A stretch of DNA of 64,000 nucleotides from a virus. Positions 17,633 to 47,342 of the stretch are shown in pieces (the first letter of the stretch is position 1; the number at the start of each line of letters is the position of its first letter). Made by a program: the position numbers and the translations under genes. The notes below the pieces were generated by a model. That model was not told the origin of the DNA. It searched no databases and worked only from the letters and a program-made list of their open reading frames with translations. The stretch lies in IMG/VR virus record IMGVR_UViG_3300027754_000047, positions 1-64,000 of that record. One strand, given 5' to 3'.

Positions 17633-18045
17633 GTAAGGGCTCCACAAGGTATGGCGGTTCTAGAATCTGTTTCGGCTTCTTTTGCTGCGGTTATCTGTTT
17701 GATTTGCTTAGTGAACGCTTTTCCACCTCGCATCATCCAGGGCTCAATGGGTAAGTTCTTTAACCATTGTTCTGCTGTAGGCACAAAGCCCATATCTTCG
17801 AGTACGTGGTACTCTCCTATTGTTCTTACGGGCACTTTAACTCCGTCGGACTTACGCGTCAACGTAGTACCAAACACTTGTTCCAGTAGAAAGATTCCAA
17901 AGCTGGAATGTAAGATGGCTCGGTGGCGAACATCAGGCAAATGAGCCTTAGTCTGGTCAAACCAATCGTGTAAATGTTGGTAATCATCAGCGCAACCTCC
18001 AAAACGTTGGGCACTAGATAATGCATGATGATAAGGGTGGGCCAT
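17629..18045 (-). CDS. DUF6915-like protein (138 aa)
   Basis: The sequence MAHPYHHALSSAQRFGG, then HDWFDQTKAH, RHRAILHSSFGIFLLEQVFG, VPVRTIGEYHVLEDMG and PTAEQWLKNLPIEPWMMRG follows the DUF6915 family, found in phages and bacteria. Several conserved His residues and an Arg-His pair suggest a metal-dependent or nucleic-acid-related role, but none has been established. It overlaps its upstream neighbour by one base. Confidence 0.8.
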   Translation of the reverse strand: MAHPYHHALSSAQRFGGCADDYQHLHDWFDQTKAHLPDVRHRAILHSSFGIFLLEQVFGTTLTRKSDGVKVPVRTIGEYHVLEDMGFVPTAEQWLKNLPIEPWMMRGGKAFTKQIKQITAAKEAETDSRTAIPCGALT

Positions 18046-18683
18046 TAAGTTTCTTCCTCTGGTTCCTGTGAGTTGCTGTAGTGGTGGGTGGTCAACAACA
18101 CATTATTTAGGGTTCCTGCTTCAGGGCCTAACAATGTAACGCTAAACAAATTATCGTATATATCTCCATCTCCCGCTCCTCCATCCGAGTTAAGCTCGTT
18201 GTAGAAGATCGTTGGGTCCAGATTATACTTATCAAAAATTGCTTGGCATTCTTCTTCAGTAGCCACTGTTAAAGTATTCGGCTTATCGTAGCCTGCTCTG
18301 AGGACCTTAACCTCCGTATTCTCTAAGTCGCAATTGTCGGTGCCGGACGAATAATAGCTTACTATTCGCCCTACCCCGTGCGCCATGCAGGCAATGCCTG
18401 TAAACAATAGATCCGCGTTAAGTTCAGCTCCGCGCAACATTCCCGTTAGTTCCAATAAAGCTGTAAATTCTTCATTGGAAAACTTGTTCTCAGAGTCATC
18501 CCCGCAAGGTAAGAATTGACTTAGCCTTGGGTCAGTTTTTATTAAGGTTGCCCTTAGCGTACTAAAATCAGAAAACCCTTCGTTAGAGACTCCAACCATG
18601 TTAATGTAAGCTGCAATGGCAGTTATTCCTTTTTGAGAATAACAATAGGCTGCCCAGCCTGGATGAAAAGATACTGCGGTCAT
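18045..18683 (-). CDS. Hypothetical protein (212 aa)
   Basis: No family recognised. A mixed alpha/beta acidic protein beginning MTAVSFHPGWAAYCYSQKGI and ending NSQEPEEET. Its ATG overlaps the end of the DNA ligase gene, so it is translationally coupled to it; a role in replication or repair is possible only by association. Confidence 0.65.
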   Translation of the reverse strand: MTAVSFHPGWAAYCYSQKGITAIAAYINMVGVSNEGFSDFSTLRATLIKTDPRLSQFLPCGDDSENKFSNEEFTALLELTGMLRGAELNADLLFTGIACMAHGVGRIVSYYSSGTDNCDLENTEVKVLRAGYDKPNTLTVATEEECQAIFDKYNLDPTIFYNELNSDGGAGDGDIYDNLFSVTLLGPEAGTLNNVLLTTHHYSNSQEPEEET

Positions 18684-19789
18684 TCGTAATTCCTCAAAGT
18701 TACTCCAATTGGGAACCGTGGCACATTTCCATTAGTTAACCCCTGATACCTGACTGTTAGTAGTTTGCCAATAACAGTCTTAGGTGCCTTAAGGTAAGGC
18801 TTTAGTTTATCTAGTTCTCCCTCCATTTTACAAGAGAACTCCGCCCCGTTCTTAGTGACGCAGCGAAAGATAGCGCATTCCGCCATCTTGCCTCTGCCTG
18901 CTTCAACTCCAATGACGTCGAACTCAGCGTCATCAAACTCTTTAATCTTCTGCAGATTGTAAGAACGTTTATTCTCATACAGTGGAGCGGCATTCCGAAT
19001 CATTGCGCCTTCGTACCCGGCCTTACGGCACTTGGCGAAGTATTCAGTAACCCCCTCCTCATCCATAAGTATCGTGGCCACCAATACCAATGTTTTATTT
19101 GGCTTTAGCCTATCTCTTAGTTCCATGCGTTGTTTAAACCCATAGAACCCTACAGCCACATCATAGATGTGGTACTGCACTACCTCGTTACCTGCCTTGG
19201 GTTCCGTAGGCCTAACCAAACTAACGATTTCCTCAAACTTATCTTTGTAGGAGTGGTTGTACAGTTCTCCGTCAAAGTTAATGTCTTCTCGGCCAGCCCA
19301 TTGCCGTTCCAGCTCTGCAACTATGTGAGGCAAGCTAGTAATCTGCTTACGGGTTCGGGTCCACAAAGTACAAACTCCGGCCTGCAACATTGCAATGCAC
19401 CTAATGCCGTCAAGCTTAGGCTGAACGTATGCAGGGTAGGTGATCTTAGCTGAGTGCTCACTAAACTTGTGAGCCAGCATAGGCTCTAGGCCTCCCGTGA
19501 TGCAAGCATCTACCTTGCCTGCCTTGGTAGCCGCTTGAGTTTTGGTGTAGCCCTTTTTAAGCTTCTTTTCCCACTGAGCTTGGGCTTCTAATGCTGCTTG
19601 CTGACTAGCCGTTGTAGCGTTCTTCTTGCCTAAGTTCTTGCCCTCAGCAACAACATCAGTGGTTGCTTGGATCTTGCCGCCGACTTTGCCGTATTTTTTA
19701 TGTATAACGTTGTCGGCTGTTGATATGGTCCACTGCTGAACTGAGCCATCTTCATTCTTAGAATATAGGGTAGGTAGGACAGTAGTCAT
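18680..19789 (-). CDS. ATP-dependent DNA ligase with N-terminal WGR-like domain (369 aa)
   Basis: Seals nicks in duplex DNA through a ligase-adenylate intermediate. The nucleotidyltransferase motifs are in order: motif I PKLDGIR with the adenylated Lys125, motif III FDGELYNH with Glu175, motif IV EGAMIR (260-265) and motif V LQKIKEF (Lys281/Lys283). A C-terminal OB-fold follows. Residues 1-60 (QQWTISTADNVIHKKYGKVG) look like a WGR domain fused in front, as in several phage and bacterial ligases. The linker 60-95 is Ala/Lys/Thr-rich. Start is well supported by GAGGTGGTAACCAT-ATG. Confidence 0.92.
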   Translation of the reverse strand: MTTVLPTLYSKNEDGSVQQWTISTADNVIHKKYGKVGGKIQATTDVVAEGKNLGKKNATTASQQAALEAQAQWEKKLKKGYTKTQAATKAGKVDACITGGLEPMLAHKFSEHSAKITYPAYVQPKLDGIRCIAMLQAGVCTLWTRTRKQITSLPHIVAELERQWAGREDINFDGELYNHSYKDKFEEIVSLVRPTEPKAGNEVVQYHIYDVAVGFYGFKQRMELRDRLKPNKTLVLVATILMDEEGVTEYFAKCRKAGYEGAMIRNAAPLYENKRSYNLQKIKEFDDAEFDVIGVEAGRGKMAECAIFRCVTKNGAEFSCKMEGELDKLKPYLKAPKTVIGKLLTVRYQGLTNGNVPRFPIGVTLRNYE

Positions 19790-27791: not shown

Positions 27792-28400
27792 TTAATCGTA
27801 AAGTTTAATAGTGGGGGCAAGTTTAGGATTGGCTCTAAGTTTTTCCCTAGTTAGGCTTCGACCGAATAAACCGCCTAATAAGCCTACAGTGCCAGCTCCG
27901 CCTAAGCCCAACAAAGTGGCTGCCGCTATGCGGTTAAAAGAACTAGGTGGGCCATCAGCTAAGCCATACCCTAAGCCTGCTCCGCCTAGGCCTCCTAATA
28001 CAGCACTTATAGTGGCCCAGTTACCAAAACTAGCGTTTAGTTTATTTAACAGTTGTTTTTCGGTTTTACGAAAAGTGTTCTTAGCTTCTTGAAGTCTAGC
28101 TGCTTCTTGCCAATAAGCGTGGCCGGCCCCTAACTTACTACCTACACCAAAACCTAACACAGCGCCAGGTGGGCCTCCCATTAAGCCTCCAGCTACAGCT
28201 GCAGGTAAACCATAACCTGCCTGATATAGCGCTGAGTCTGCTAGTTCGTAAAGGCGTTGAGTATTAACAAAACTAGGCCCCAAGTGTTGCCGCTTAAGAT
28301 CATACTGATCATCTCGAAATAAAGACTCAGTAGAACTGGGAGTGGCTATTAACTTAGCCAACTCTACCGATGAATCTAGTAAGTTTTTTTCTTTAGCCAT
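27792..28400 (-). CDS. Glycine-zipper virion-like protein (202 aa)
   Basis: Contains GLPAAVAGGLMGGPPGAVLG, ISAVLGGLGGAGLGYGLADG and AATLLGLGGAGTVGLLGGLF, three Gly-rich hydrophobic segments, with helical linkers between. Its ATG overlaps the stop of the upstream 385-aa gene. Most likely a membrane-interacting internal virion protein; no sequence family was identified. Confidence 0.7.
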   Translation of the reverse strand: MAKEKNLLDSSVELAKLIATPSSTESLFRDDQYDLKRQHLGPSFVNTQRLYELADSALYQAGYGLPAAVAGGLMGGPPGAVLGFGVGSKLGAGHAYWQEAARLQEAKNTFRKTEKQLLNKLNASFGNWATISAVLGGLGGAGLGYGLADGPPSSFNRIAAATLLGLGGAGTVGLLGGLFGRSLTREKLRANPKLAPTIKLYD

Positions 28401-29557
28401 CAGGGTGTAGCTTTAGCTTTTTGGAGTGCATTATAGGCTTCTAGTAAATGTGATTGATCTGCCCCAAAAAATTGTTGCATATATTGCCCGTACCTTGAGC
28501 CGCCAATCTCTTTTGCTTGGTCAGCCATGCGCTTGCCTTTAGCCCAGAAGCCAGCATCAGCCGGTAGGCTTGGGTGGTTTGCATTATACTCATCGATAGC
28601 GGCTGGCCCTTCAAGCCCTACAGATGTAGCCATGTTGACTCCTGCTTGGACTGCGCCTTTCAAGGGAGCTACCCACGGAGCACTAGTCAAAATACCGAGA
28701 CCTTGCCTAGCTGTAGTATAGGCGTCACTAGGCAGCACACTGGAATGCATAGTTTTAGCAAAGCCTTGATCTACGGGATTGGTACCGCCTCCGTCCCACG
28801 CATAATACTTAGGATTAAGAGCATAGTGCTTAAGCGACTCGAAAGCAGAGCCAAAAGTACCTTTAACAGCTATTCTAGCGGCCTCAGATTGAGACATTCC
28901 TTGCTGTACTAGTTGAGTTTCTAGTTCTTGCCGACGTTTATCCATTAAGTCGTACCCGTTTGCAGCATGGTGAGCTAGATCATTTACGGCAACCGCTGAA
29001 GTAGCAGTAAGAGCAGGAGTAACTACTCTTTTAGTTATATTTCCTGCCCTTGAGGTCCCTGTTAGGTTCCTAACTCGACCTGAATGAGGGGCAAATACAA
29101 AACGACCTGGCGGAGTATTAGCAACAGCTCTGACCGGAGTAGCAGCAAGCCGACCTGCTCCTCTAACTAATCTGGAGCCAGCGCCTAATGTGCCAGCGAC
29201 TAACGCCAATGCTGCGGGAGTATTACTAGCTATTGCTGGGGCAGCCACTATTCCGCCTGCGGCTCCGCCGGCTAAGCCAGCAACCCCTGTAGACAGGGCG
29301 GCTGCATCTAACAGTTTATCGTTCTGGTATCGTAGGGGAACCTTATTCGTCCCAGGTGCAGCATTTCTAACTCTACGCACAGTATCTAACCAAGTAGAAT
29401 CATCAGCATAATCTGAACCAACTCGACCACCTGACCAATAGTTTGCAGCACCTGTAAAAGGTTCTGCCAATTGATTACCAAAAGTAGACCACCAACCAGG
29501 CTGCTCGGCGGCTTGCTTAAGAACTAGGTTAATTAAGTTGTTGGCGAGTTTAATCAA
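28400..29557 (-). CDS. Ala/Gly-rich virion-like protein, paralogue of the 477-aa gene (385 aa)
   Basis: TTG start at 29555-29557, overlapping the RNA polymerase stop, with GGAGGAGTGGG upstream. Residues 1-20 are MIKLANNLINLVLKQAAEQP. Residues about 25-110 (FGNQLAEPFTGAANYWSGGR and GSDYADDSTWLDTVRRVRNA) are nearly identical to the start of the 39235-40668 product, then the two diverge. AALSTGVAGLAGGAAGGIVA is a membrane-type Gly/Ala segment. Probable ejected or internal capsid protein. Confidence 0.75.
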   Translation of the reverse strand: MIKLANNLINLVLKQAAEQPGWWSTFGNQLAEPFTGAANYWSGGRVGSDYADDSTWLDTVRRVRNAAPGTNKVPLRYQNDKLLDAAALSTGVAGLAGGAAGGIVAAPAIASNTPAALALVAGTLGAGSRLVRGAGRLAATPVRAVANTPPGRFVFAPHSGRVRNLTGTSRAGNITKRVVTPALTATSAVAVNDLAHHAANGYDLMDKRRQELETQLVQQGMSQSEAARIAVKGTFGSAFESLKHYALNPKYYAWDGGGTNPVDQGFAKTMHSSVLPSDAYTTARQGLGILTSAPWVAPLKGAVQAGVNMATSVGLEGPAAIDEYNANHPSLPADAGFWAKGKRMADQAKEIGGSRYGQYMQQFFGADQSHLLEAYNALQKAKATP

Positions 29558-32500
29558 CCCACTCCTCCAACTATTTTGACGGTATCCGTTGCGTCTATTT
29601 CACCTCGGTTAAACGCTCTAATAACGTCATCCTTGGTACGGAAAGATTTTACGTTGTTCTTATCGGCACCCTTACGGCTGGCTAGGAATAGCCCATATAA
29701 GAACTCGTTCTTGATAAAGTTGTGAGCCTTCATAGTGGAAGCCGATAACAAGTTCCTACTAGGCAACATGCGGTCGTAAGCTTCCTTTACAGCCCCTGCA
29801 CTACTAGGTACGTGTAAACGCATCTGATCGCCGTCGAAGTCAGCATTAAAACCTACAACGACTGAAGGGCTCATGCGCATGGTATTACCTGTAGTTAATA
29901 CCGGCTTGGCTGCCATGAAGTTGTATTTGTGTAGTACCGGAGCTCGAGTAATGAGTACCGGCCTTTTTTCCATTTCATACAACAAAGCCCTACGAGCTGA
30001 GTCGGTCTTATTTTCTACTTGCTTCATGGCCTCAATAGGACTAGAGCCAGCAGCAGTAAGGGCTCTAATAATGTACGGCCTAAATACTGTAAATGCCATA
30101 TCTTCTGGTACCCCAACGTGGTCCATATCCATTGATGGATCAGGTGCAATAACGGCATTACCTACCCCTTCGACCGTAGAAGACAAGACCTTGCGTTGAA
30201 ACATACTAAACTTAGGATTGGAACCTAGCAAATGGCGAATTAAACCATTAACGTTCTTTTGCTTTAACTTAGCTGAAGCTGGATCGGTTAGGCCTACAGT
30301 AGCTTTGACCATACGGTAAAGGGCTAGTTGTTCTTTACCTGTAGAATCTGCACCTAGTTCAGTTTGCAGTTCCTTTAAGTTACTATTCATTGAATAGAGT
30401 TCTTTGTAAAGGAAGTTCATATCTGCCACCATCTGCATAGAGCCGGTGTCAGTAATAGGTCGGAATCTAGGAGGCAAGACCGGCATGGAGTCCCACAAGA
30501 ATTCCGATGGGTCTATTTTTCTTTTAGCCATTCCGTCTAGGTAGGCTAACTTAGTAATAGCATTAGATCGCTTTTGGCCTTTAGCTGTAGCCATTTCTTT
30601 CTTAGCTGCAGCCTGCTGGCTAGGAATGTCGTAGTTATGTAAGTAGGCAGTAAGGCCAGCCATACCCTTGATACCCTTAACGTCTTCGCCGCTGACTACA
30701 GCTTCGAAATCCTTTTGGGTCAAGCCAGTTAAGGATCTAACTGCATCCTCCATTACCGGGTTAACTACTTTAGCTGCTAAAGGAAAATGCCCGAAGGAAG
30801 ATTGGTTTACGCCGAAGATCTTCTCGTCAAAGAAGCCGCCATCTACAGCTTTGCCGGTACGGAAGTCTATATCTTTGGGGCTCTTTACTTCACCACCAGA
30901 CATAGCCTTAACGTCTGAATTGGTCATACCGTAGATGTTAATGATGCCGCCTTGGCGTTGAACGTTTACTCCAGCGCCCTTAAGTTGAGCTACGAACTTA
31001 TCCCAAACAAATGGTACGGCTACGTTGGGTACTGGAGTGCCAGCTTTAACTGCTCGCCAGTACTCGTCGTTCTTTTGCCCTCTGATAAGCCTAGCATCCT
31101 TAAGGACTTCTATAGCACCGTGGGCTAATAGGGAGTTAACATCTGCAATACCAATACGCTTAGCGCCTTCGGAGCCTCCCTTTACTGGGGCTTCTTCATT
31201 AGAGTACCCACCGGTATCTCGGCCGCTCAACTTGCCTTCTGCTTGATGGTGCAAGTTCATAAAGTAGCGAGTACCGGTAAAAACGTTATCTATATTCTTG
31301 TTGAGTCTCGGATCAAATATAGTTTCTGTGTCTGAAACTCTAGCTTTTTTAAGTTCGGCTTGAGCGAAGTCAATAAGGGATCCGTCGATGAAAGCTGGCA
31401 TTTTGTACGGTACGCCGGTCTGGGCTGCCAACTTCCCCAATGCCGCTTCAACGGCTTGTACAGGATTAACCCGAGTGACAAGAGCCAATGGATTATAGAT
31501 AACTTCATAAGCTGCTCCTGCCTTATCTTGAGGCATATCACTATCTTCTATTACCGCAGAGATAACACCTTTATCTCCGTAACGCCCTACTAGCTTATCA
31601 CCAGCTGTCATAGGCTTATAGGATTTAATAGCAACTTGCCAACCGGTTCGGGTTGGAGTCACGTCGGTAACTACTCCAGGCTGAGAGTGTTCCCAAGTTT
31701 GAGCCCTATTCGTAAAACTAGGTCGAGATTTCTTCACTAAACCAAAAGTGTCAGACTTACGTTCTCCTACCCCTAAGATAATAGGATCGCCTGGATTAAC
31801 AACCGTGCCTGGTTTAATTACTCCGGTGCTATCCATTTGCTTTAGTTGGTCTTTGGAGTACTGCCCAGGAAACAACGAGATAAACTTGTTGTAATCAGCA
31901 GTATAGTCGTCCTTGTTGTCATAACCTACAGTGTACATATGCTCTGAAGACATCTTCTTCGCAGCACTAGCGGAAACAACTACTCCGTCTTCGAAGTTGG
32001 AACCACCTAGTTCCTCGTCGCCCCAAATCATATATGCTACTTTGAGGTTCTTACCCATAGCTAGGGCACCATTAGCGTCAGTATAGTTAGACTTAGCTAA
32101 TAACTGACCAGGCTTAACCTGATCTCCTAGTTTAACTCCAGCAGTATTGTGTATGTAGGTGTTGTGTACTAGTAGACCGCAATCTACTGCAAACACTTGG
32201 CTGCTGGCGACTTCGAAGTCATAGACATAGGCGGCAGGTTCAGCCTTAGTAATACTTACTACTGTATCCCACATAACGTCAGAGTCTGCCCAAGGCTTAA
32301 GCACTCCGGATTTAATGCGGTGCCGTTGTATGTAGCTTCCAGCAGTAGCAGTCTTGTAAACCGAATGAGGGGTTGTTGCCCCAGTGCCGGCATATGCCAA
32401 GACCCTACTAGCCTGAGTAACAGGGATCCCGTCGAACGTAGCAGCCCTAAAACTAAGGGAGGTTAAACTATTTAGCTTTTCGTTTCGGTCCTGGTAGCAG

Positions 32501-35500
32501 AACCAGGCTGCTAGTCTATTAATGTGGCTAGAGATTACTCTCAGGCCATAACTAGGATTCCAAGCTGCATTTTGGTGGAGCTTAGTCTTTGGCAGTGTGC
32601 AGAATATTCCTAGAGAGGCCAAAATATCTACCAGTCTATCTCTCATTAACAAACTAGCAGTCCAAGCTTGTAGCTGTACGGCTCCATTAGTATCTGAGTG
32701 TAAGCAACCATCTCCAGACATGTAGCCTTGGATTAGGCCCTTACGAAACTCTACTGAGCGGAGCATAGTTTGCTCAGAGGGAGCCTTAGCGCCACTACCG
32801 TGTCCAAACTCTTGCCGCAGCCAAGTAGCGGTTTGCTTACAGGTAAAAGAGGCTTTACCTGTACTAACAGCATTGACGTGAACTTTAAACCCAAGTGTAG
32901 TCAAAAGGATATTAAGCTCTGCTTGCCGAGCTGCTGGTTGAGCGGCCAGTACTACTAAGTTTGGCTGACTTGCAGGTATGTGGCCCTCTGCTAAGTATAA
33001 TCCTGCCAATAAGCCCCAAGCATGAGTATCGTGATCCATGGTGCTGCAGGCGCCTAAGGTCATTCCTACTACAGGCAGTCGAGTTACGCCTACCTCACAG
33101 TCAGCTGGATATATGGGCACTAACTCTCCGGAGTCTCCTAGCGTAACTAAGGAGTGATCCTCAGTAGTAACCACTTGACGGCCAGATAGTGTAGTAGTCA
33201 GCACCAGGCGCTTAGTGTTAGGGATCTTAGCAAACCCTGTGATAGGCTCCCAAGCTGCCGCCTTAGTGTCCAGATTAATGGATCTTATTAGATCCCCTGA
33301 CTCTTGCTGATAGTCTTGGGCGGCTACTTGCTGAATTACTCCAGTTGCTCGTTTGATCCAAACTTTGGTAGCTCCGGCAACACACTTACGGTTAAAAGGA
33401 AAGTTGTTGTACAATTCGTACCGCTTCTTATCCTTGCCGTGCTTAACCTCAATGTAGTCTGCTGTTACATCGGTAACCAAACCTGCACCTAAAGCCGCAT
33501 CTGCTCTTACAGCACCTAAATAGGCTGATACTCCATCTTCGAAAGATTTACCTTCAGCATCGTTGGGATCCAGAGCTTGCACTAATGGTGCTTCTGCTTG
33601 CTGTAAAGGTAACGCTTGAGTGAAGTACTTTGAACCCATTAATAAGCGGCCACCCTTAATACCGGAAATACCAGGTACTAGGTTGGAGTTTAAATTAAAC
33701 ATGTTGGCATAGCTTGGTACCTCGTACTGTACAGCCTCAGGCTCTACGTAAGAGATCTTACCATTAACCATAGCTCGTACTGGGTCGCCGGTTCGTAAAG
33801 CCCTAGCAAGCTCGCCTGGAAAAGCTACAACAGCATCGGTAACAGTTCTAGCAGGTATTTGTTCAATCTTACCTGTTTGGATATTCTTCATCTTAGAGTA
33901 GATCTGGCCGTCAGAACCCTTTAAAGCTCCAATGGTTAATCTAAGATCTACACCTACTTGAGAAGATTCTGGAGTGCGTACTGGATCAATAAAGCCTAAG
34001 TGACTTGGTTGAACGGAGCGGGTATCTACAGGAATACCGTGGGCAGCAGAACCAATACCACCTTCGCCGGTGCGAATGACTCTAAGGTTCTGATCCAGAA
34101 TTTCCATTGGATTAACTTCTTCAATGGGCGCACCTAAACCCGAACCCATTAACACTCCACTAAGTACCGGAGTAAACACGCCGTTTCTAAATGCTTGTAA
34201 ATTGCCTTTATTGGTAGCCTTAAAAAGGGCACCACGTAAAGCACCTCCAGCATCTTTAACTATTCGCTCTGCAAAGAAATCCTCAGGGCCATAGAAACGT
34301 TGATAAGTTAAGGCATCGCGATCATCTACATCTTCGCTGCCCTTTTGAGCATTCAAAACCTTTTGACTAGCTCTTAGTAAGGTGCTGCCGGTAACTCTAG
34401 TTAAGTCTTCTTCGTTTAACTGAATGTGATCATTGCTTGCCTCAAAGTTAAACATAGGCTCAGTTGATTTAACTGGATCCATTAAACCGTTTAAATCGTC
34501 AAAGCCTGCTACCTTTACTCCGACAGCTAATCTAAAGCCACCTGTAGGCTTAGGATCTAATAATAAACTGCGGCGAAACTGCTCTAGTTCCGGACAATCA
34601 ATATCGATGCACCATTCTCCGTTATTAGGAGGTAAGACCTGGCGAACAATATAAGTGAAGCGCCGGCCATTACCGCAAGTAGCTTCAAACTTAGACTTAA
34701 AAAGCTTCTTTAGCTTTTTAATTTCTTCAGAAGTAATTACCACTAAACGGCCTTTGTCTTCTACTGGCGAGATACCTGGAGCATTATCTCCGTCTCTTAA
34801 AGCGTAGTAGACTCCGGTAACCATACCTGCAGGTACGGTGATATAACCTTCGGATTCTAATTTAAGGGTACCCCTCATAGGCACCGCTGCAGTCTTAACG
34901 CGAGCTCCTAAAGTTCTAGCTACTACTTCTTTATTAAGCTCAGTGTTATATAGGGCTGTACGAATACCTTCATACAGGTCAGGCTCACTTATGCCACTAG
35001 ATGGATTACTAGTAAGCCGCTCATATATACGAGCAGCATCATAAGGAGATGATGCTCTATTGTTAGCAAAAATCTCTTTGCCCCAGCTACGCTCAAGTAC
35101 CTCGTCTGGTACTCCGTAAGCCTTAAGCATAGGATATAGTGGCGCAACTGATTGACCAATTTCGGTAACAAACTTACCGGTATCTGGCATGAAGGCAACT
35201 CTAAAGCCTCGACCCTTACCCGGTAAGGTATTAAAGTGAGCTTCGTATTCACCCGACTTACGCTTACGTACATAAGCGCCGGGCAACAACCTAGCTTGAT
35301 TGGCTACAGTGTATTCGCTGCCTGCGTTTATAAAAGTGCCTCTGTTGGTTAAGTAAGGCACTCGAGCTAAAGTTAATGATCTATCTGTCTTATCTAGTAC
35401 AGCTCCGGTGGCTATATCTCGCATAACCAGCTTACCCTTTAACGGGTAATACAAACTTTGATTCTGCATCAAGGCTTGCTGTTGCTCTTTTAAACTGTAA

Positions 35501-35691
35501 TCTTCCGACTTACCATAACGCAAGTCAGTCAACTCCACTCTGTAGCGGGTATTTTGTAAAGGAAACTTAGCTGCTACTGCAGTAAAAACATTATCAAAGA
35601 TGTTTTTACGTGTAGCTGTGTAGTCGCTAAAGCCTCTAAGAGTTGGAGCTTGTGGTTGGATTAGGGCGTTTAAATCGTCCTCAGTAGCCAT
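29554..35691 (-). CDS. Fused RNA polymerase beta + N-terminal beta' protein with intein (2045 aa)
   Basis: Multisubunit-type RNA polymerase. Beta features in order: VPYLTNRGTFINAGSEYTVA (about 110-130), FIDPVRTPESSQVGVDLRL, the intein (770-1177), ALAMGKNLKVAYMIW, SNFEDGVVVSAS, GDKLVGRYGDKGVIS (about 1370) and NPLALVTRVNPVQAVEAALG. Beta' features follow: GEVKSPKDIDFRTGKAVDGG, MPVLPPRFRPI and the catalytic NADFDGDQM (DFDGD 1951-1955). The chain ends 90 residues later (RNLLSASTMKAHNF..). The bridge helix and trigger loop of beta' are absent and must be encoded elsewhere. Spliced length is 1637 aa. Position among virion-like proteins suggests a virion-packaged enzyme. Confidence 0.93.
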   Translation of the reverse strand: MATEDDLNALIQPQAPTLRGFSDYTATRKNIFDNVFTAVAAKFPLQNTRYRVELTDLRYGKSEDYSLKEQQQALMQNQSLYYPLKGKLVMRDIATGAVLDKTDRSLTLARVPYLTNRGTFINAGSEYTVANQARLLPGAYVRKRKSGEYEAHFNTLPGKGRGFRVAFMPDTGKFVTEIGQSVAPLYPMLKAYGVPDEVLERSWGKEIFANNRASSPYDAARIYERLTSNPSSGISEPDLYEGIRTALYNTELNKEVVARTLGARVKTAAVPMRGTLKLESEGYITVPAGMVTGVYYALRDGDNAPGISPVEDKGRLVVITSEEIKKLKKLFKSKFEATCGNGRRFTYIVRQVLPPNNGEWCIDIDCPELEQFRRSLLLDPKPTGGFRLAVGVKVAGFDDLNGLMDPVKSTEPMFNFEASNDHIQLNEEDLTRVTGSTLLRASQKVLNAQKGSEDVDDRDALTYQRFYGPEDFFAERIVKDAGGALRGALFKATNKGNLQAFRNGVFTPVLSGVLMGSGLGAPIEEVNPMEILDQNLRVIRTGEGGIGSAAHGIPVDTRSVQPSHLGFIDPVRTPESSQVGVDLRLTIGALKGSDGQIYSKMKNIQTGKIEQIPARTVTDAVVAFPGELARALRTGDPVRAMVNGKISYVEPEAVQYEVPSYANMFNLNSNLVPGISGIKGGRLLMGSKYFTQALPLQQAEAPLVQALDPNDAEGKSFEDGVSAYLGAVRADAALGAGLVTDVTADYIEVKHGKDKKRYELYNNFPFNRKCVAGATKVWIKRATGVIQQVAAQDYQQESGDLIRSINLDTKAAAWEPITGFAKIPNTKRLVLTTTLSGRQVVTTEDHSLVTLGDSGELVPIYPADCEVGVTRLPVVGMTLGACSTMDHDTHAWGLLAGLYLAEGHIPASQPNLVVLAAQPAARQAELNILLTTLGFKVHVNAVSTGKASFTCKQTATWLRQEFGHGSGAKAPSEQTMLRSVEFRKGLIQGYMSGDGCLHSDTNGAVQLQAWTASLLMRDRLVDILASLGIFCTLPKTKLHQNAAWNPSYGLRVISSHINRLAAWFCYQDRNEKLNSLTSLSFRAATFDGIPVTQASRVLAYAGTGATTPHSVYKTATAGSYIQRHRIKSGVLKPWADSDVMWDTVVSITKAEPAAYVYDFEVASSQVFAVDCGLLVHNTYIHNTAGVKLGDQVKPGQLLAKSNYTDANGALAMGKNLKVAYMIWGDEELGGSNFEDGVVVSASAAKKMSSEHMYTVGYDNKDDYTADYNKFISLFPGQYSKDQLKQMDSTGVIKPGTVVNPGDPIILGVGERKSDTFGLVKKSRPSFTNRAQTWEHSQPGVVTDVTPTRTGWQVAIKSYKPMTAGDKLVGRYGDKGVISAVIEDSDMPQDKAGAAYEVIYNPLALVTRVNPVQAVEAALGKLAAQTGVPYKMPAFIDGSLIDFAQAELKKARVSDTETIFDPRLNKNIDNVFTGTRYFMNLHHQAEGKLSGRDTGGYSNEEAPVKGGSEGAKRIGIADVNSLLAHGAIEVLKDARLIRGQKNDEYWRAVKAGTPVPNVAVPFVWDKFVAQLKGAGVNVQRQGGIINIYGMTNSDVKAMSGGEVKSPKDIDFRTGKAVDGGFFDEKIFGVNQSSFGHFPLAAKVVNPVMEDAVRSLTGLTQKDFEAVVSGEDVKGIKGMAGLTAYLHNYDIPSQQAAAKKEMATAKGQKRSNAITKLAYLDGMAKRKIDPSEFLWDSMPVLPPRFRPITDTGSMQMVADMNFLYKELYSMNSNLKELQTELGADSTGKEQLALYRMVKATVGLTDPASAKLKQKNVNGLIRHLLGSNPKFSMFQRKVLSSTVEGVGNAVIAPDPSMDMDHVGVPEDMAFTVFRPYIIRALTAAGSSPIEAMKQVENKTDSARRALLYEMEKRPVLITRAPVLHKYNFMAAKPVLTTGNTMRMSPSVVVGFNADFDGDQMRLHVPSSAGAVKEAYDRMLPSRNLLSASTMKAHNFIKNEFLYGLFLASRKGADKNNVKSFRTKDDVIRAFNRGEIDATDTVKIVGGVG
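32161..33384 (-). other. LAGLIDADG intein inside RNA polymerase (408 aa)
   Basis: Begins at Cys770 (FNRK|CVAGATKVWI) and ends at Asn1177 with block G LLVHN followed by Thr1178 as the C-extein nucleophile. Block B is TTEDHSLVTLG. DOD motifs LLAGLYLAEG (about 895) and LIQGYMSGDG (about 990) give a two-motif homing endonuclease. Block F is VYDFEVASSQVFAVDCG. Removing it joins FNRK to TYIHNTAGVKLGDQVKPG, the conserved beta segment ahead of the LALGxN strand. Intein removal appears necessary for activity. Confidence 0.93.
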
Positions 35692-38092: not shown

Positions 38093-39235
38093 CTAGAATC
38101 CTAATTTACCTAAGTTTATCAAAGTACCTAAGGCTGCACCGGTGCCTTGTAACACGTTCTGCTCCATAGGGCTGACATTCATAAACAGCCCAATACCTTT
38201 AGCGGCAACAGCACCTGCAACGGCTCCAGCTCCAGCTCCAATAGCTGCCTTAGCTAGATCCCCTACGGTAAACCAAGGTCTACTACCAGTGTTAGCTGCT
38301 GCTTGCATCAATCCAGCAGCTTGTCCGTGATCTATATAACCGCTGTATAACTGCTCAGCAGCTAAATCTGCTAAATGCATTTTATTAATAGGCAAGTCTA
38401 AATTAATGAAAGCTGCTTTAACCGGAGCTGCAGGTAACGGTAAGTTATATGCTTTGTTCTGATATTGGGCTTTAAATGCCGCGCTATCTGCGTCGGAATA
38501 GGATTCATTAGGCCTTGCACTAAAGTTATTTATTTCTGCGAAAGTATTAGGTAGATTGGCTAACCAAGGAGCTCCCATTCCGGCCATAGCGGCAATACCG
38601 GCTAAGGCTCCACCCTTACCCTCAAACCGCTCAGGGAATAAATACTGCAGTATGGGAATACTCGCTAAACCTAAACCCGTTAAACCAGCTCCGGTAACTA
38701 GATTACCTAATCGTTGTTGATTAGCTCCGCTAACTCCTTCGTCGTACCAGACTCCAGGGCGGTAGCCTAAGTATTTAGGTAAATCTGCGCTAAAGGCTGC
38801 GTGCTTACTTAAATGGTAAGCAGCGGTTGCTGGGTAGGTTGCACTCCAAGGAGTTTGATTTTCAGCTGCTTCTCCCACTTCTTTGGTAGCATTAGTAAGG
38901 TCTGCTTTCATTTGGCTGGCTTGGCTTTTCATCTTAGAGTAGCTACCTTTACCTCCCCCTTTAAAATTAGCCATACCTCTACCAGGCCCCATAGCCTTTA
39001 ACTTAGCCTGCTTACTACCAATGGCAGTACCGTTAATAACTTGCTCAGGTAGGTGCATTCGAAAACCAGTAGGAGTATGAGTAACGCCAACTATGCCGTC
39101 AGCCTCAGAATCAACTATAAACTCGCTAGGACTCTGCATAATAAGTCCTCGCATAATTAAATGCTTTTTATCATAGTCCTTAGTATCTGAGTAAGCTTTA
39201 GCGTTTTTTAAATCTTTAAGTTTAGATTTAACCAT
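38093..39235 (-). CDS. Virion-like protein with membrane segments (380 aa)
   Basis: The N-terminal domain (QSPSEFIVDSEADGIVGVTH, TGFRMHLPEQVI) is a soluble beta domain. It is followed by a basic Gly/Lys/Ser linker (MANFKGGGKGSYSKMKSQAS) and hydrophobic stretches (LVTGAGLTGLGLASIPILQY, ALAGIAAMAGMGAPWL and IGAGAGAVAGAVAAKGIGLF). Its ATG overlaps the upstream stop by one base. Internal virion or ejection protein by context; no family recognised. Confidence 0.68.
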   Translation of the reverse strand: MVKSKLKDLKNAKAYSDTKDYDKKHLIMRGLIMQSPSEFIVDSEADGIVGVTHTPTGFRMHLPEQVINGTAIGSKQAKLKAMGPGRGMANFKGGGKGSYSKMKSQASQMKADLTNATKEVGEAAENQTPWSATYPATAAYHLSKHAAFSADLPKYLGYRPGVWYDEGVSGANQQRLGNLVTGAGLTGLGLASIPILQYLFPERFEGKGGALAGIAAMAGMGAPWLANLPNTFAEINNFSARPNESYSDADSAAFKAQYQNKAYNLPLPAAPVKAAFINLDLPINKMHLADLAAEQLYSGYIDHGQAAGLMQAAANTGSRPWFTVGDLAKAAIGAGAGAVAGAVAAKGIGLFMNVSPMEQNVLQGTGAALGTLINLGKLGF

Positions 39236-40668
39236 TAAAGCGCTCCACTAGGTTTGGCGTCAGAGCCTGGTATTGATTCAAAACTACTAGGAGCTGTTTT
39301 GGCAGTATGGTAGGTTGAAGGAGTTGCAGCGGCTTGAGGAGCAAGGCCTACTCGATTAACAATAGAGTCGTGCAATGCCTGGGCTTTGGCAGGATCCTTG
39401 GCATACAACTCACTAAGTGTAGCGGTATACTGCTCAGGATGCAAAATTAACTGGCTAGCAAGTACGTAGTTAGGATCTGAGGGATTCCAGTCTTTAATAA
39501 CTTGAAGGCGTGGATCATTTGGATTTGCGTAATTTTCCAATTCGCTTTGAATACTAGCTACTTGAGCTTTATTTGCGTTAAAAGCTTTAGCTAGTTCTCT
39601 AGGATATTTCTGATCGCGATAAGACTTTCCTTGATAAGGATTTAAATTATTTAGGAAGTTTCCAAAGCGCCCTAATGTGTTAAAAATAGGCGATTGCTGG
39701 GCTCCGTAGGCATCAACCTGCGGCTGATACCTAGCATACTCCTCAGGATCGGAGGAGTTTGCTTGTGTATTTAATTCCTCAGTCTGTTCGGGAGTTAATT
39801 GAGATCGAATATCTCGTTCGTCAGGTTTTAGGCCGCCGAGGAAAGTGGAACCCACGAACCCAATAGGGCCTAAAGGAGAGACAGGAGTTCCACTAGCTAA
39901 CCCTTTAACTCCTTCAACGGCACCACTAAGCAAACTACCTGTATCTTGGTAAGCATCACTTGCAGAACCAATAGCATTACCCCAAAGATCTACTCCCATG
40001 CTGCCTGTTATGGCTGGAACCCCTAAATTAGTTACAGCTTTTTCCATGTTGCTACCAAAACCAGCTGCCTGATCCCATGGCTGCTTTAGGTATTGCATTA
40101 ACGCTCTAGGGTCTTGTATCCACTGCCTACCAGGGATTAATACATCTCTACCAAAGTTGTATGTGTTATTAAGAGCATTACGCCCTTGTTGAACAGCAAA
40201 GTTAACTGCTTGTTGAGTTCTAGGGTGATTGACCACGCCGGTTGCTGCTGTGGCTATAGGAGCCCCAAGCCTTACCGCTGTACCTGCTAGCGCTGATCCT
40301 GCGGCAGGTACAGCGTTAAGAGCGGCGCTACCCCCTGCTAACATTGCGGGCGCTGCTAAGGCGACGCCTGCGGCTCCGCCGGCTAAACCAGAAACGCCTG
40401 TAGATATGGCAGCAGCGTCTAACAGTTTATCATTCTGGTAATATAGGGGTTGCTTAGTAGTACCAGGTGCAGCGTTATTAACTCTACGGACAGTATCTAG
40501 CCAAGTGGAGTCGTCAGCATAGTCTGACCCAATACGACCACCTGACCAATAATGAGCAGCACCTGTAAAAGGTTCTGCCAATTGATTACCAAACGCAGCC
40601 AACGAACTAGGTGGGGCGGCTGCTCGTTTATTTAAAACAGAAAGAATGGGATACAGTCGAATATCCAT
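39235..40668 (-). CDS. Virion-like protein paralogous to the 385-aa gene (477 aa)
   Basis: N-terminus MDIRLYPILSVLNKRAAAPP, then FGNQLAEPFTGAAHYWSGGR, GSDYADDSTWLDTVRRVNNA and AAAISTGVSGLAGGAAGVAL, which match the 28400-29557 product almost residue for residue. The middle is a different Ala/Gly/Asn-rich sequence. The C-terminal third is charged and helical (QLTPEQTEELNTQANSSDPE). First gene of the long minus-strand RNA polymerase/virion block. Confidence 0.75.
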   Translation of the reverse strand: MDIRLYPILSVLNKRAAAPPSSLAAFGNQLAEPFTGAAHYWSGGRIGSDYADDSTWLDTVRRVNNAAPGTTKQPLYYQNDKLLDAAAISTGVSGLAGGAAGVALAAPAMLAGGSAALNAVPAAGSALAGTAVRLGAPIATAATGVVNHPRTQQAVNFAVQQGRNALNNTYNFGRDVLIPGRQWIQDPRALMQYLKQPWDQAAGFGSNMEKAVTNLGVPAITGSMGVDLWGNAIGSASDAYQDTGSLLSGAVEGVKGLASGTPVSPLGPIGFVGSTFLGGLKPDERDIRSQLTPEQTEELNTQANSSDPEEYARYQPQVDAYGAQQSPIFNTLGRFGNFLNNLNPYQGKSYRDQKYPRELAKAFNANKAQVASIQSELENYANPNDPRLQVIKDWNPSDPNYVLASQLILHPEQYTATLSELYAKDPAKAQALHDSIVNRVGLAPQAAATPSTYHTAKTAPSSFESIPGSDAKPSGAL

Positions 40669-42427: not shown

Positions 42428-42450
42428 ATCCTTTTAATAGCTAAAAGAAA

Positions 42451-42502: not shown

Positions 42503-43960
42503 TCAGTCTCGCAACGCAGCAGGGCTGCGGCGGCGAATCTGAGGCACTTGTTGAACTTCTTCCGGCAAGTTGTACTCATGCGCTGCCACCTCAATGGCCT
42601 GGGCCAAGATAGTAGCAGCCTTTTCTCGCTCCGAGTTATGAGTCCTCGGTGCTCGGTTTACCAGCTTCAGCTGAAGGCGCATAGCCTCGAAGGCCTCCAT
42701 GATGTCCTCTGGCAACACCACGTTGCGGTCTGCTAGTTGAGCAAGAATAGCGGCTGCAACGCCGATCTGCACCACGGTGCTTGGGTTCTGGTGCCCGCAA
42801 GTCTGCAGCTTGTCTAACCAAGTGTTGGTGTCCACTTTGGTGGTCAAATTACAAACTCTACCCAACAAACGCAGGCTAGCTTCTGGAGCTAAAGGCTCCA
42901 TCTCAATCAAGCTATTCATTCTGCCTGGTCGAAGGAATACAGGCAGAATGCGCTCGGTATCGTTGACCGTAAAGATGGTCATCAACGAGCGACCCTTGGT
43001 GCTGACGCCGTCCAGGACGTTCGTCAAGTTGTCTTGGCGAATGGTACGCTCATCGTTCTCGGACTCCATCAAACGATTCACGTCTTCCACTACTAGGATG
43101 GCCGGTTCATACTGCTGAGCCCACTCGTTACCAAACTCAAGATCGCGAGCATCTTTGATGAAGATGCAAGTGATGCCTCGGCTGCTTGCTTCGGCCATTA
43201 CTGCATTTACCAAAGCAGACTTACCGGTACCGTAACCGCCAACCAACATGTGGTTGGATTGAAAACGGACTGCACCTGCTGCGCCCTTCAACACATCTTG
43301 CCGGCGCAAACGCTGCAAGATTTGCGTGTTGATTCGCTTCTCTGTTGCAGGGTTGAAGACCAGGTCTTCGAGGACTCCCTTGCAGTCCTCGTATTTTGCC
43401 ACGTGTCGCGCATGGTTGAAGGCAGTCCCTTCACCTCTACGGTAAGGGAACTCAATTGAAACAATCGTCCCCTTCACCTTAGAGTGAATGCCGGTTGCGA
43501 TGTTTCCTCGCAACGTTGCTTCAAACTGCTCCACAATGCGAGTCAACAGGCCAGGTGCTTTAATGCGCAACCGCAAGTAAGGCTCGTCTGTGTATTCTGC
43601 TTGCTCCAGGCTGGCCTGGATGCTTATGTTGTATTTTCCACCGTCTTCAGCAGAGACGACTTTTAATTCAATCCAACTGCCGATTGGCACTTGCACTGTC
43701 TGACCCTTATTTTGGATAGACAGTTTGCTTGCCCCTGCAGGGACTATCGGAACGCAATCCAACTGGTGGATTGTTGCCCAATAGCTTAGAAGGGCATCTT
43801 CGAAGTAAATGCCCGTCAACTGCACATATGTGTTGACCATTTCTTCTTGGCTGGCCACGTATGCCGCCAATGCTGCTGATGTTGCCTTCAGGCCAAAGCC
43901 TGTTGGCGCCTGAACCCCAATGTGGTTCGGGGTATGCTGCTGAAACTTGACTTCATTCAT
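42503..43960 (-). CDS. AAA+ ATPase (485 aa)
   Basis: Walker A GGYGTGKSALVNA (about residue 240), Walker B AILVVEDVNRLME (about 285), sensor 1 TIFTVNDTERILP and an arginine-finger-type LRPGRMNSLIEME place it in the CDC48/Vps4/FtsH-like AAA clade. The N-terminal 220 residues are unique and could be a substrate-recognition domain. No protease follows. Likely an unfoldase or remodeller; a role in virion assembly or host takeover is open. It has its own promoter (44013-44046). Confidence 0.85.
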   Translation of the reverse strand: MNEVKFQQHTPNHIGVQAPTGFGLKATSAALAAYVASQEEMVNTYVQLTGIYFEDALLSYWATIHQLDCVPIVPAGASKLSIQNKGQTVQVPIGSWIELKVVSAEDGGKYNISIQASLEQAEYTDEPYLRLRIKAPGLLTRIVEQFEATLRGNIATGIHSKVKGTIVSIEFPYRRGEGTAFNHARHVAKYEDCKGVLEDLVFNPATEKRINTQILQRLRRQDVLKGAAGAVRFQSNHMLVGGYGTGKSALVNAVMAEASSRGITCIFIKDARDLEFGNEWAQQYEPAILVVEDVNRLMESENDERTIRQDNLTNVLDGVSTKGRSLMTIFTVNDTERILPVFLRPGRMNSLIEMEPLAPEASLRLLGRVCNLTTKVDTNTWLDKLQTCGHQNPSTVVQIGVAAAILAQLADRNVVLPEDIMEAFEAMRLQLKLVNRAPRTHNSEREKAATILAQAIEVAAHEYNLPEEVQQVPQIRRRSPAALRD

Positions 43961-44012
43961 CTCGGATTTTTCCTCTGAAAAGACATTTTATCAATATCAA
44001 TATGAACCGCCT

Positions 44013-44046
44013 ATGTATATTAACCAATATTAGGGGCTAATTTAAC
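44013..44046 (-). promoter_or_regulatory. Phage promoter upstream of the AAA+ gene
   Basis: Minus-strand read: TTAAATTAGCCCCTAATATT, GG, TTAATATACAT. It follows the terminator at 44069-44102 and its TTTAGCTATT tail. About 50 bp upstream of the start at 43960. Matches the recurring element family. Confidence 0.65.
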
Positions 44047-44068
44047 AAACATAAATAGCTAAAGAAAT

Positions 44069-44102
44069 AGCCGGGACCAAGGGTTTCCCCCTGATCCCGG
44101 CT
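44069..44102 (-). terminator. Hairpin terminator after the 98-aa gene
   Basis: AGCCGGGA and TCCCGGCT form the outer stem. On the minus strand it is followed by ATTTCTTTAGCTATTTATG. It ends the transglycosylase operon. Confidence 0.8.
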
Positions 44103-44112
44103 ACGAAATGAA

Positions 44113-44409
44113 TCATTCAGCACAATGCACTAGCGAAAATGCTAGTGCATATGCAGCTGGCGCTGCCACCGGGGCCCAATAAGCCCTTACTTCGGTTATG
44201 ACATACACCATACTGGATCTCTTTCCATCCCGCAGGTGGTGCCTGTCCAAGATAACCTCATATCGATCATCCAGGATGTCGTCCAACCTGTCTGCTGTCT
44301 TTACCAACAACCCTAGCTTGCAGCAGGGAGACGCGCCCTGGTTGTTACCCACCGCTATGTAGCGGTGTAGTGGCTCCATCAATAGAAGCGTAGGCGTATC
44401 CGTTGTCAC
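44113..44409 (-). CDS. Hypothetical protein (98 aa)
   Basis: GTG start (44407-44409) overlaps the transglycosylase stop, with CTGGAGGCACC as ribosome binding site. Contains LVKTADRLDDILDDRYEVIL and a hydrophobic tail (AAPAAYALAFSLVHCAE). No domain recognised; it is translationally coupled to the lytic enzyme. Confidence 0.6.
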   Translation of the reverse strand: MTTDTPTLLLMEPLHRYIAVGNNQGASPCCKLGLLVKTADRLDDILDDRYEVILDRHHLRDGKRSSMVYVITEVRAYWAPVAAPAAYALAFSLVHCAE

Positions 44410-44822
44410 GGTGCCTCCAGTGCAGCCTGCACCTTGGCCCAATAACCCAAGGTAGCATTCTTGCGGTGCCCCTTAGGGCCGCCGTTATGCTGCCTTGCCA
44501 GCACTTCCATGCTCGCGTTCTTCGGCGCATAGCGCCGAAGGTAGGCCTTTACCACTTTCGTGGCGTAGGCCTTATCCTTACAATCGGCATACGTGCCGCC
44601 GATTGATTTGTCATACTGGGTCGCGTCAACCCAGTATGCCTTATGGATTTGGTAAGGCCCAATAGCCTTACCTTTGTCTCCGACCGCATTCGCGGGGTCG
44701 GCTTCGCCGCCAGTCTCCACCTGGCAAATGGCCTGGACTAATCGGTCCAGGTCGATGTCACTCACTTGCGCCTTCGCCTGGCTACAAGCCAAGGTAAGGA
44801 CAACCAATAAGATTCGGAGCAT
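44406..44822 (-). CDS. Exported lytic transglycosylase/lysozyme-like enzyme (138 aa)
   Basis: Residues 1-18 (MLRILLVVLTLACSQAKA) are a signal peptide. The mature part has the SLT/goose-lysozyme-like core: AICQVETGGEADP with catalytic Glu36, AIGPYQIHKAYW, and ARQHNGGPKGHRKNATLGYW. It should cleave peptidoglycan glycan strands in the periplasm, so it is a candidate endolysin or ejection muralytic enzyme. Start is behind AAGGGAGTAACGAA-ATG. Confidence 0.85.
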   Translation of the reverse strand: MLRILLVVLTLACSQAKAQVSDIDLDRLVQAICQVETGGEADPANAVGDKGKAIGPYQIHKAYWVDATQYDKSIGGTYADCKDKAYATKVVKAYLRRYAPKNASMEVLARQHNGGPKGHRKNATLGYWAKVQAALEAP

Positions 44823-44863
44823 TTCGTTACTCCCTTTCTTGTTTGTTGTTTCCGTGCAAATCC

Positions 44864-45541
44864 CTACGGAACGTCCGTAGGGTTACAAATTTGTTGTTTC
44901 TTTCGCGGGGCGCGAATACGGCGCACGCAACCCTTACGCCATCTAGCAGCAGTTGCCTTGCCGTCAAGGTTAACCCAGCTGTAGCTATTATCTTGCGCTT
45001 GCACTGCTTTACCTACTTCCCGCAGGGCTTCGTTGCTAAGCATGCAAATGTATCCTTTGGACCCGTCGATTCTTACTGCAACTTGTTTTTGCATCAGGTC
45101 CTCAATGTACAAAGCCTCTAACACCCAGCGCTGGTCTGGGTAAAGGTGAGCTTGATCTAACAGCTCTTTCAATTCCTCTTTATGAGGAACCTTTTTGGCT
45201 TGAGGGTCCCAAACGCATTTTGTTTTCATTTCGCTCAGCACCTTAACTGCATCAAAAGACAAAAACTTAGGCCTAGTTCGGTAATGAGTTCCTTGCCTAC
45301 CGTAAGTTTTTCGTATTAGGTCCTTCACGCAAAAGATGCTTTTGCGGGGAGCGAAGCTTAAATCTTTACCCACCCCCATTAGTTGCATGATGGCGTCATG
45401 GGCTGCTGATTCCGCATCCACTAAGGGGTCGTCTACTCGGCCTACTCTTTTAAGGTACTTCCGGCAAAGAAAGCAGCTTATGCGAATAGCCTTTTTGATA
45501 TTAGCCTCGGAATAATCTGGGGCTTCTATTACTGCTTCCAT
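44864..45541 (-). CDS. Sigma-factor-like protein (225 aa)
   Basis: The middle (DAESAAHDAIMQLMGVGKDL, then IRKTYGRQGTHYRTRPKFLS) resembles region 2, and YPDQRWVLEALYIEDLMQKQ followed by VAVRIDGSKGYICMLSNEAL resembles region 4 helix-turn-helix, the order of ECF-type sigma factors. The C-terminus is very basic (RWRKGCVRRIRAPRKKQQIC). It could direct host or phage RNA polymerase to phage promoters. Homology is weak by eye, so another DNA-binding role is possible. Confidence 0.55.
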   Translation of the reverse strand: MEAVIEAPDYSEANIKKAIRISCFLCRKYLKRVGRVDDPLVDAESAAHDAIMQLMGVGKDLSFAPRKSIFCVKDLIRKTYGRQGTHYRTRPKFLSFDAVKVLSEMKTKCVWDPQAKKVPHKEELKELLDQAHLYPDQRWVLEALYIEDLMQKQVAVRIDGSKGYICMLSNEALREVGKAVQAQDNSYSWVNLDGKATAARWRKGCVRRIRAPRKKQQICNPTDVP

Positions 45542-45714
45542 TTGAGTACCGTTCTAGAGACTATGTACAGTCCTGCTAAAACAGTGCCACAAGTGATTAT
45601 GTAGCGGCCTGTAATTGCGTCGCCTTTTAGGGCTTCGATTACTCCTGCAGCTACGGGAGCTACGGCCACCCAGAACTCTGTAGTCCGAGTGCCTGATTTC
45701 ATAGTTGGGTCCAT
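45529..45714 (-). CDS. Small two-pass membrane protein (61 aa), holin-like
   Basis: Start behind GGTAAGGCTCCAA-ATG. Two hydrophobic stretches (FWVAVAPVAAGVIEAL and YIITCGTVLAGLYIVSRTVL) with a short loop (KGDAITGR) and a basic C-terminus KWKQ. This class II-holin-like topology and the nearby muralytic enzyme make a lysis role plausible but unproven. The 3' end overlaps the sigma-like gene. Confidence 0.65.
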   Translation of the reverse strand: MDPTMKSGTRTTEFWVAVAPVAAGVIEALKGDAITGRYIITCGTVLAGLYIVSRTVLKWKQ

Positions 45715-45776
45715 TTGGAGCCTTACCGCGTTGCGGCATTAAGAGTGTATCTTATTGCCTAACTCGGCTATGAAAA

Positions 45777-45808
45777 GACCCCTTGATCCAATTAAGAATC
45801 AAAGGGTC
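45777..45808 (-). terminator. Hairpin terminator downstream of tRNA-Met
   Basis: GACCCCTTGAT and ATCAAAGGGTC form the stem around an AT loop. On the minus strand it is followed by TTTTCATAG. A second hairpin (GGGGCACTT/AAGTGCCCC, 45825-45854) stands just upstream. Confidence 0.75.
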
Positions 45809-45893
45809 CTTGAGGAGAAAGAAAGGGGCACTTAGGTTTAATCCCAAGTGCCCCCATTGGGGGAAAAGATGCAGTTGCCTTTTTCAAGGTGAA

Positions 45894-45967
45894 TGGACCG
45901 GGTGGGATTCGAACCCACGCCTTATCGATTATGAGTCGACGGCTCTAGACCACTGAGCTACCAGTCC
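45894..45967 (-). tRNA. tRNA-Met-type tRNA (CAU)
   Basis: Acceptor GGACTGG/CCGGTCC (one G-T pair), D arm GCTC..GAGC, anticodon stem GTCGA/TCGAT with loop CTCATAA (anticodon CAU), T arm GTGGG-TTCGAAT-CCCAC, discriminator A, no CCA. CAU could be elongator Met or, if C34 is modified to lysidine, Ile (AUA). The sequence does not decide. Confidence 0.92.
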
Positions 45968-45976
45968 AAGGTAAGG

Positions 45977-46093
45977 CTTTAACTAAGCTGCTGTTCATGG
46001 AATTCCAGGATTCTTTGGACTTTTAAATCCATAAGGCGTAAATCCCGGTCTTGTCGTAGGTTTTCTCTACGCTCTAGGGCAGCTTAGTTAAAG
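45977..46093 (-). ncRNA. Candidate structured RNA closed by a 15-bp stem, upstream of tRNA-Met
   Basis: CTTTAACTAAGCTGC (45977-45991) and GCAGCTTAGTTAAAG (46079-46093) are perfect complements. The enclosed 87 bases hold smaller helices (CGTAG/CTACG around 46056-46072 and TGGA/TCCA around 46016-46031). It sits 10 bp upstream of the tRNA and has no ORF. Multi-branched, tRNA-sized overall. It may be a degenerate tRNA-like element or a processing leader. Confidence 0.55.
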
Positions 46094-46151
46094 GGGTCAG
46101 GCTGAGGAGCGCTGTACTCAACTCAGCCTAATTCAGTACGATTGTTAGTCG

Positions 46152-46175
46152 TATATCATTATAACCCGTTTATGC
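46152..46175 (-). promoter_or_regulatory. Possible promoter with GTTATAATGA (tRNA-Met transcript)
   Basis: Minus-strand GGGTTATAATGATATACG contains a perfect -10 hexamer TATAAT. The same GTTATAATGA occurs upstream of the 73-aa gene (46461-46480). These look like a second, host-sigma-type promoter class, without an obvious TTGACA at -35. Confidence 0.5.
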
Positions 46176-46192
46176 TAAATTTTTAGCTTTAA

Positions 46193-46414: not shown

Positions 46415-46460
46415 TTTGCACCTGTTAGCTAAATGAAGAGCTCTAATGAGTTCTTTCTAA

Positions 46461-46480: not shown

Positions 46481-46496
46481 CCGAATGTTTAGTGGC

Positions 46497-47285: not shown

Positions 47286-47342
47286 ACTCCCTTTGATTGA
47301 ACCTGTAAACCCGTTAGCAAACAGGTTCAAGTCCAAGCCAGG

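Follow-up and report, generated by a model that had tools for sequence, protein, structure and literature searches.

Organisation of the polymerase locus

The window analysed here comprises positions 1 to 64,000 of the viral contig IMGVR_UViG_3300027754_000047 (129,472 bp; G000). Its minus strand carries an ORF of 2045 aa, with an ATG at 35691 and a stop codon at 29554–29556, in which sequences of the β subunit of RNA polymerase (RNAP) are followed by those of the N-terminal part of β′ (β′N). The features of the locus are:

29554–35691, minus strand: gene for the RNAP β plus β′N precursor (ORF list; Pfam; PHROG 25354 and 24349; PDB matches of an intein-less homologue)
33385–35691, minus strand: N-extein, residues 1–769, the N-terminal two thirds of β with the lobes and the fork region GEGGIGSAAHGIPVDTRSVQPSHLGFIDPVRTPES (alignment; intein boundaries)
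34402–34899, minus strand: β insertion of about 165 aa, approximately residues 265–430 (alignment columns 302–472)
32161–33384, minus strand: intein, residues C770–N1177 (Pfam; comparison with homologues)
29557–32160, minus strand: C-extein, residues 1178–2045, the C-terminal part of β with the catalytic lysines K1366 and K1374, then β′N
29827–29841, minus strand: metal-binding motif DFDGD, residues 1951–1955, corresponding to RpoC 460–464 (alignment to RpoC)
28400–29557, minus strand: gene for a 385-aa Gly/Ala-rich protein, its TTG start overlapping the RNAP stop codon (TTGA)
27792–28400, minus strand: gene for a 202-aa protein with a weak C19orf12-like match (2e-4, below the cut-off)
51113–52984, minus strand: portal protein gene (26% identical to Arash gp204; 69–77% in G001 and G006)
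1–4272, minus strand: giant ORF cut by the left end of the contig at base 1 (ORF list; gene order with G004 and G006)

The large chain joins β to the front of β′

Pfam matches in the 2045-aa chain run from β domains (RNA_pol_Rpb2_6 at 3.5e-39, Rpb2_3 and, weakly, Rpb2_2) to β′ domains 1 and 2 (Rpb1_1 and Rpb1_2, the latter at 4.9e-23). PHROGs agrees with Pfam: the β part matches phrog_24349, while the stretch of phrog_25354 (1216 positions) best matched by the chain is positions 133–539. An intein-less homologue also gives PDB matches. When mapped on Salmonella RpoB and RpoC, D1951, D1953 and D1955 align with RpoC D460, D462 and D464, R1916 with RpoC R425, and K1366 and K1374 with the two conserved catalytic lysines of RpoB. 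With the catalytic NADFDGD and the β lysines in place, the gene would belong to the bacterial-type two-barrel RNA polymerases. The three aspartates lie in the motif NADFDGDQM, and the chain ends 90 residues after DFDGD. Its last directly aligned residue is D2010 (RpoC N519), and by extrapolation its C-terminal end would fall at about RpoC 550. The ORF stops before the bridge helix and the trigger loop, and Pfam gives no match in it to Rpb1_3, Rpb1_4 or Rpb1_5 (β′ domains 3–5). An earlier sequence-only reading of this DNA had described the β and β′ motifs up to NADFDGDQM, the fusion of β with β′N and the lack of bridge helix and trigger loop in the ORF; the coordinates, the Pfam domains and the RpoC alignment bear it out on each of these points, although it overlooked the 408-aa intein within the ORF. 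The window shares the β insertion of about 165 aa with its close relatives; the eight other aligned relatives lack it.

The intein has Pfam matches to Intein_splicing (5.8e-11) and LAGLIDADG_3 (8.4e-07). It starts at Cys1 (C770), contains TTEDH as the block B TxxH motif and two LAGLIDADG-type motifs, and ends in VHN1177, with T1178 as the +1 residue. Six close homologues (L012–L017) align without this segment, and in L016 and L014 the chain passes straight from ...FNRK into TYIHNT. At the same site the RNAP of L011 has an intein that is 52% identical to that of the window. Judged by these motifs, residues 770–1177 form a class 1 intein with a LAGLIDADG endonuclease, for which splicing is predicted, and the mature spliced chain should have about 1637 aa. 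Elsewhere in the family several β′C ORFs (L088, L089, L090, L027, L029, L107 and L018), as well as the large-chain ORFs of L077, L101, L102, L105, L111 and L020, are also some 300–900 aa longer, at several sites. The extra inserts are inteins in some cases, and those of L105 and L111 match the intein of the window.

The remainder of β′ is a separate gene in close relatives

Searches of all 129,472 bp of G000 with PF04998, phrog_25354 and two alignments of the C-terminal part of β′ (β′C) matched only the known ORF. Since the profile made from close relatives detects β′C in each of the five comparison genomes but misses it in G000, this negative result is sound for the contig. Three candidate locations were rejected: the downstream ORF at 28400–29557, which encodes the unrelated Gly/Ala-rich protein; 51113–52984, which has the right size (623 aa) and is the portal gene; and 117947–119119, where a weak match to Arash gp216 (27 residues, E 0.01) lies in a different protein with orthologues of its own.

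The close relatives of the window are G001 (183,468 bp), G006 (174,569 bp) and G004 (69,101 bp), whose RNAPs are 75–79% identical to that of the window downstream of the intein. All three have a separate β′C ORF of 619–627 aa in the orientation of the large-chain gene, and the three proteins are mutually 80–91% identical. They align from RpoC T572 onward and match solved β′ subunits across the bridge helix and the trigger loop (best 8.3e-34). The gene lies downstream of the end of the large chain, at about 33.7 kb in G004, 36.5 kb in G001 and, assuming that the ends of the G006 contig adjoin, about 41 kb in G006. No cellular genome carrying this β′C was confirmed.

In these same proteins (loci L039, L040 and L041, which are G006, G004 and G001) and in several of L081–L111 the zinc-site cysteines of β′C are replaced; they are kept in Arash, D69 and L113–L141. 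Part of the trigger-loop helix in the β′C of the close relatives also departs from the bacterial sequence. Both changes may matter for the mechanism.

Gene order accounts for the absence of β′C from G000. The contig has no terminal repeats and is open at both ends. The giant ORF at its left end corresponds to 1–5109 of G006 and 42739–51999 of G004, and its right end (125261–129466) to 127478–130423 of G006 and 17017–19764 of G001. The segment of G006 from 130.4 to 174.6 kb has no counterpart in G000, and it is there that β′C sits; the contig thus stops before the place that β′C has in the collinear relatives. G000 is a fragment that lacks about 44 kb of a genome of 175–183 kb. The distance from the start of the giant ORF to β′C is 13.4 kb in G004 and about 14 kb in G006, so that in this virus the gene would be expected 9–10 kb past base 1 of the window. 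Since G001 differs from G000/G006 by rearrangements in parts of the genome, this position is one that we infer. Going by this gene order, β′C is very probably present in this individual virus as well. An exact 25-mer search found no overlapping viral contig past the left end of G000. In sample 3300042321 the large chain and β′C likewise lie on two different contigs, and assembly breaks at this place are therefore not unusual.

The sequence-only reading had called β′C missing from the window and had placed the partner elsewhere or supposed its fold replaced. The absence extends from the window to the whole contig, but this is a fragment, and the relatives do have β′C. Looking for a β′C ORF elsewhere in the genome, as that reading had proposed, yielded nothing in the 129,472 bp and succeeded in G001, G006 and G004. 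A partner encoded elsewhere is strongly supported by the separate gene of these relatives, in the segment that the contig lacks; replacement of the fold found no support.

Split and fused polymerases in one phage family

An alignment scan of viral contigs detected no fewer than 495 related stretches. We surveyed 102 loci, among which several contigs are counted twice under different locus numbers. The split form, with β plus β′N in one ORF and β′C in another, was found at 66 of the 102, including Salmonella phage Arash and Vibrio phage D69, and a single β-β′ chain, mostly of about 2010–2120 aa, at 14; the remaining loci were not assignable, mostly since the contigs end. In the split form the large chain has about 1450–1640 aa without inteins, and β′C, of about 600 aa, usually lies 0.5–9 kb downstream. 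Nearly all relatives on contigs that are long enough carry β′C. Of about 80 relatives, nearly all have 854–922 aa after the intein site and a common endpoint. L018, L019, L029 and D181 (L009) have a large chain divided between two ORFs; in D181 it is interrupted by a homing endonuclease gene.

In a quick tree of 59 rows, built with a simple model and rooted with Salmonella RpoBC, one change suffices for the split versus fused forms (support of 77 on the separating branch). The outgroup branch being long, the tree leaves the direction of this change undecided. The window groups at full support with L011, L014 and L016, among the split-form relatives. The window gene truly belongs to a widespread family of phage polymerases, and it shares a β-β′N chain ending just after the catalytic barrel with the split-form group of Arash, D69 and their IMG/VR relatives.

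Comparison with known RNA polymerases

The annotated records of Arash (gp206 and gp216) and D69 (_0261 and _0264) have the same split as the window family. Their large chain of about 1525 aa ends just after the catalytic barrel, is homologous to that of the window along its full length at about 31% identity, and is followed downstream by a separate β′C of about 606 aa. Unlike the window, Arash and D69 have no intein in the RNAP. The distance to β′C is 0.6–5 kb in Arash, D69 and D181 as against 34–41 kb in the close relatives of the window. Arash and D69 also encode a recognisable sigma factor and keep the β′ zinc site that those close relatives have lost. YerA41 has three genes, for β′N, β′C and β.

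The phiKZ-type enzymes have four to five chains and come in two RNAP sets, with a β′ break that coincides with the cyanobacterial one (PMC7598289, PMC7824862). The virion and non-virion RNAPs of the phiKZ/AR9 type resemble the window family in having no α or ω and a β′ that is split after the catalytic barrel (PMC7598289). They differ from it in that β is split too, into at least two chains, and in that each genome has two sets. Here β and β′N share one ORF, as is the rule among the surveyed relatives, and a single PF00623-bearing ORF, and thus one RNAP set, was found in each of five genomes. The arrangement is therefore unlike that of the phiKZ enzymes, as the sequence-only reading had held.

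In cyanobacteria, β′ is broken at the corresponding place into γ (rpoC1) and β′ (rpoC2). The large chain aligns to cyanobacterial γ until residue 549–551, and β′C aligns to the start of cyanobacterial β′; the break is therefore at the same place. Cyanobacterial β is separate, whereas in the window it is fused to the γ equivalent. The crAss-like gp66, YonO and P23-45 gp64 and gp96 are other enzymes encoded by phages, each combining the two barrels in a single chain. They are far more divergent and hold the bridge helix and the trigger loop within that chain, whereas the window family has them in a second one.

The mReC polymerases come from metagenomic tailed phages, with three contigs above 200 kb; their β and β′ can be aligned to the cellular subunits, and the accessible text of the paper treats them as two subunits (PMC7481178). 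A word search of that text returned neither a fusion/split partition nor inteins (PMC7481178). The mReC phages probably overlap with the polymerase family of the window. The mReC capsid family PF07068 had no match in these genomes and none in any control genome either, so that its absence carries no weight, and the L077 protein scan did not retrieve the mReC sample 3300017989. In the accessible text of the open-access literature, we found no prior description of the two-chain partition into β plus β′N and β′C.

A probable two-chain polymerase and its alternatives

We consider it highly likely that the ORF encodes the large chain of a two-polypeptide bacterial-type RNAP of a tailed phage, the partner β′C being encoded beyond the contig. 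The 2045-aa precursor would splice out its 408-aa intein, leaving a chain of about 1637 aa that would carry all of β together with the β′ clamp and the catalytic barrel. The bridge helix, the trigger loop and the rest of β′ would come with a second chain of about 620 aa; in close relatives its gene lies on the same strand, 34–41 kb downstream. The two chains would dock at the β′ break also used by cyanobacteria and phiKZ phages, and the docked enzyme would transcribe phage genes. The conserved catalytic residues and the strong conservation of the sequence speak for an active enzyme made up of two phage chains.

Searches for accessory subunits found no α (PF01000) in G000, G001, G006, Arash or D69, although 13 of 14 control genomes gave a match; α could come from the host. 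The search detected sigma factor region 2 in Arash and D69. It gave no sigma factor in G000 or G006, which counts against the two-chain reading, since promoter recognition is then unexplained.

How the enzyme is used is a separate question from its anatomy. It is possible, if doubtful, that the RNAP is packaged in the virion, as the sequence-only reading suggested from the neighbouring proteins, and injected for the transcription of early genes, like the phiKZ virion RNAP or P23-45 gp96; this is compatible with the two-chain enzyme. The presence of Gly/Ala-rich proteins among the neighbours, the position of the Arash RNAP gene after the portal gene and the finding of only one RNAP set per genome are consistent with packaging, but a place near structural genes also fits late expression without packaging. 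We think it very unlikely that the virus has truly lost or replaced β′C, its chain working alone or with a host subunit: the lack of β′C anywhere in 129,472 bp would agree with such a loss, but neither end of the contig is closed and about 44 kb are missing, including the place of β′C in the collinear relatives, and the gene is present in nearly all relatives with long enough contigs. That a frameshift or sequencing error truncates a full single-chain β-β′ like that of L022 or L024 is extremely improbable, for although such chains exist at 14 surveyed loci, the same endpoint recurs in almost every one of about 80 split-form relatives, the downstream frame encodes the unrelated Gly/Ala-rich protein with β′C sequence in no frame, and the window is placed among split-form relatives with full support.

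The two-chain enzyme adds another phage partition of bacterial-type RNAP, between phiKZ (four to five chains) and the single-chain enzymes. A family that holds both split and fully fused forms allows the history of its chain breaks to be traced on a tree. With Salmonella phage Arash and Vibrio phage D69 as sequenced isolates of this layout, α-less assembly, promoter recognition and virion packaging become testable. The case also illustrates that the end of a contig can look like the loss of a catalytic half. More broadly, it is plausible, if a little short of probable, that a large group of tailed phages relies on an α-less RNAP of two chains, one with β and the front of β′ and the other with the bridge helix and trigger loop, whose genes lie tens of kb apart in the subclade of the window; the enzyme would form only after intein splicing and may be carried in the virion.

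Neighbouring genes and a repeated motif

Annotations of the neighbouring genes are thin. The 385-aa Gly/Ala-rich protein had no match in Pfam or PHROG and has a related gene in G006 at 30261–31352; it is possibly a virion or ejection protein. A second window ORF, 39235–40668 on the minus strand, matches the same single G006 protein (61%, as compared with 35% for 28400–29557). One of the two may have moved or arisen by duplication, or they may have a common domain. The gene for the 202-aa protein is kept beside the RNAP gene in G001, G006 and G004.

A search for a promoter motif of the phage RNAP yielded only a terminator-linked repeat, TTTAGCTATTAA, with 9 matches in the window at one mismatch or fewer against 1.15 expected; none of 100 shuffles reached as many. 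Sites lie on the minus strand at 42434–42445, 44052–44063, 47247–47258, 48329–48340 and 48971–48982, and on the plus strand at 50738–50749 and 51093–51104, mostly directly after the T-tract of terminator-like hairpins. It may be a terminator-linked element or a promoter of the phage RNAP.

Further along the minus strand of the window, 42503–43960 encodes an AAA ATPase (PF00004, 1.6e-10; phrog_10440), and 4276–10809 a 2177-aa protein with RCC1-like repeats (PF13540, PF25390). The latter, possibly a virion or tail-fibre protein, has orthologues of 2109–2152 aa in G006 and G004.
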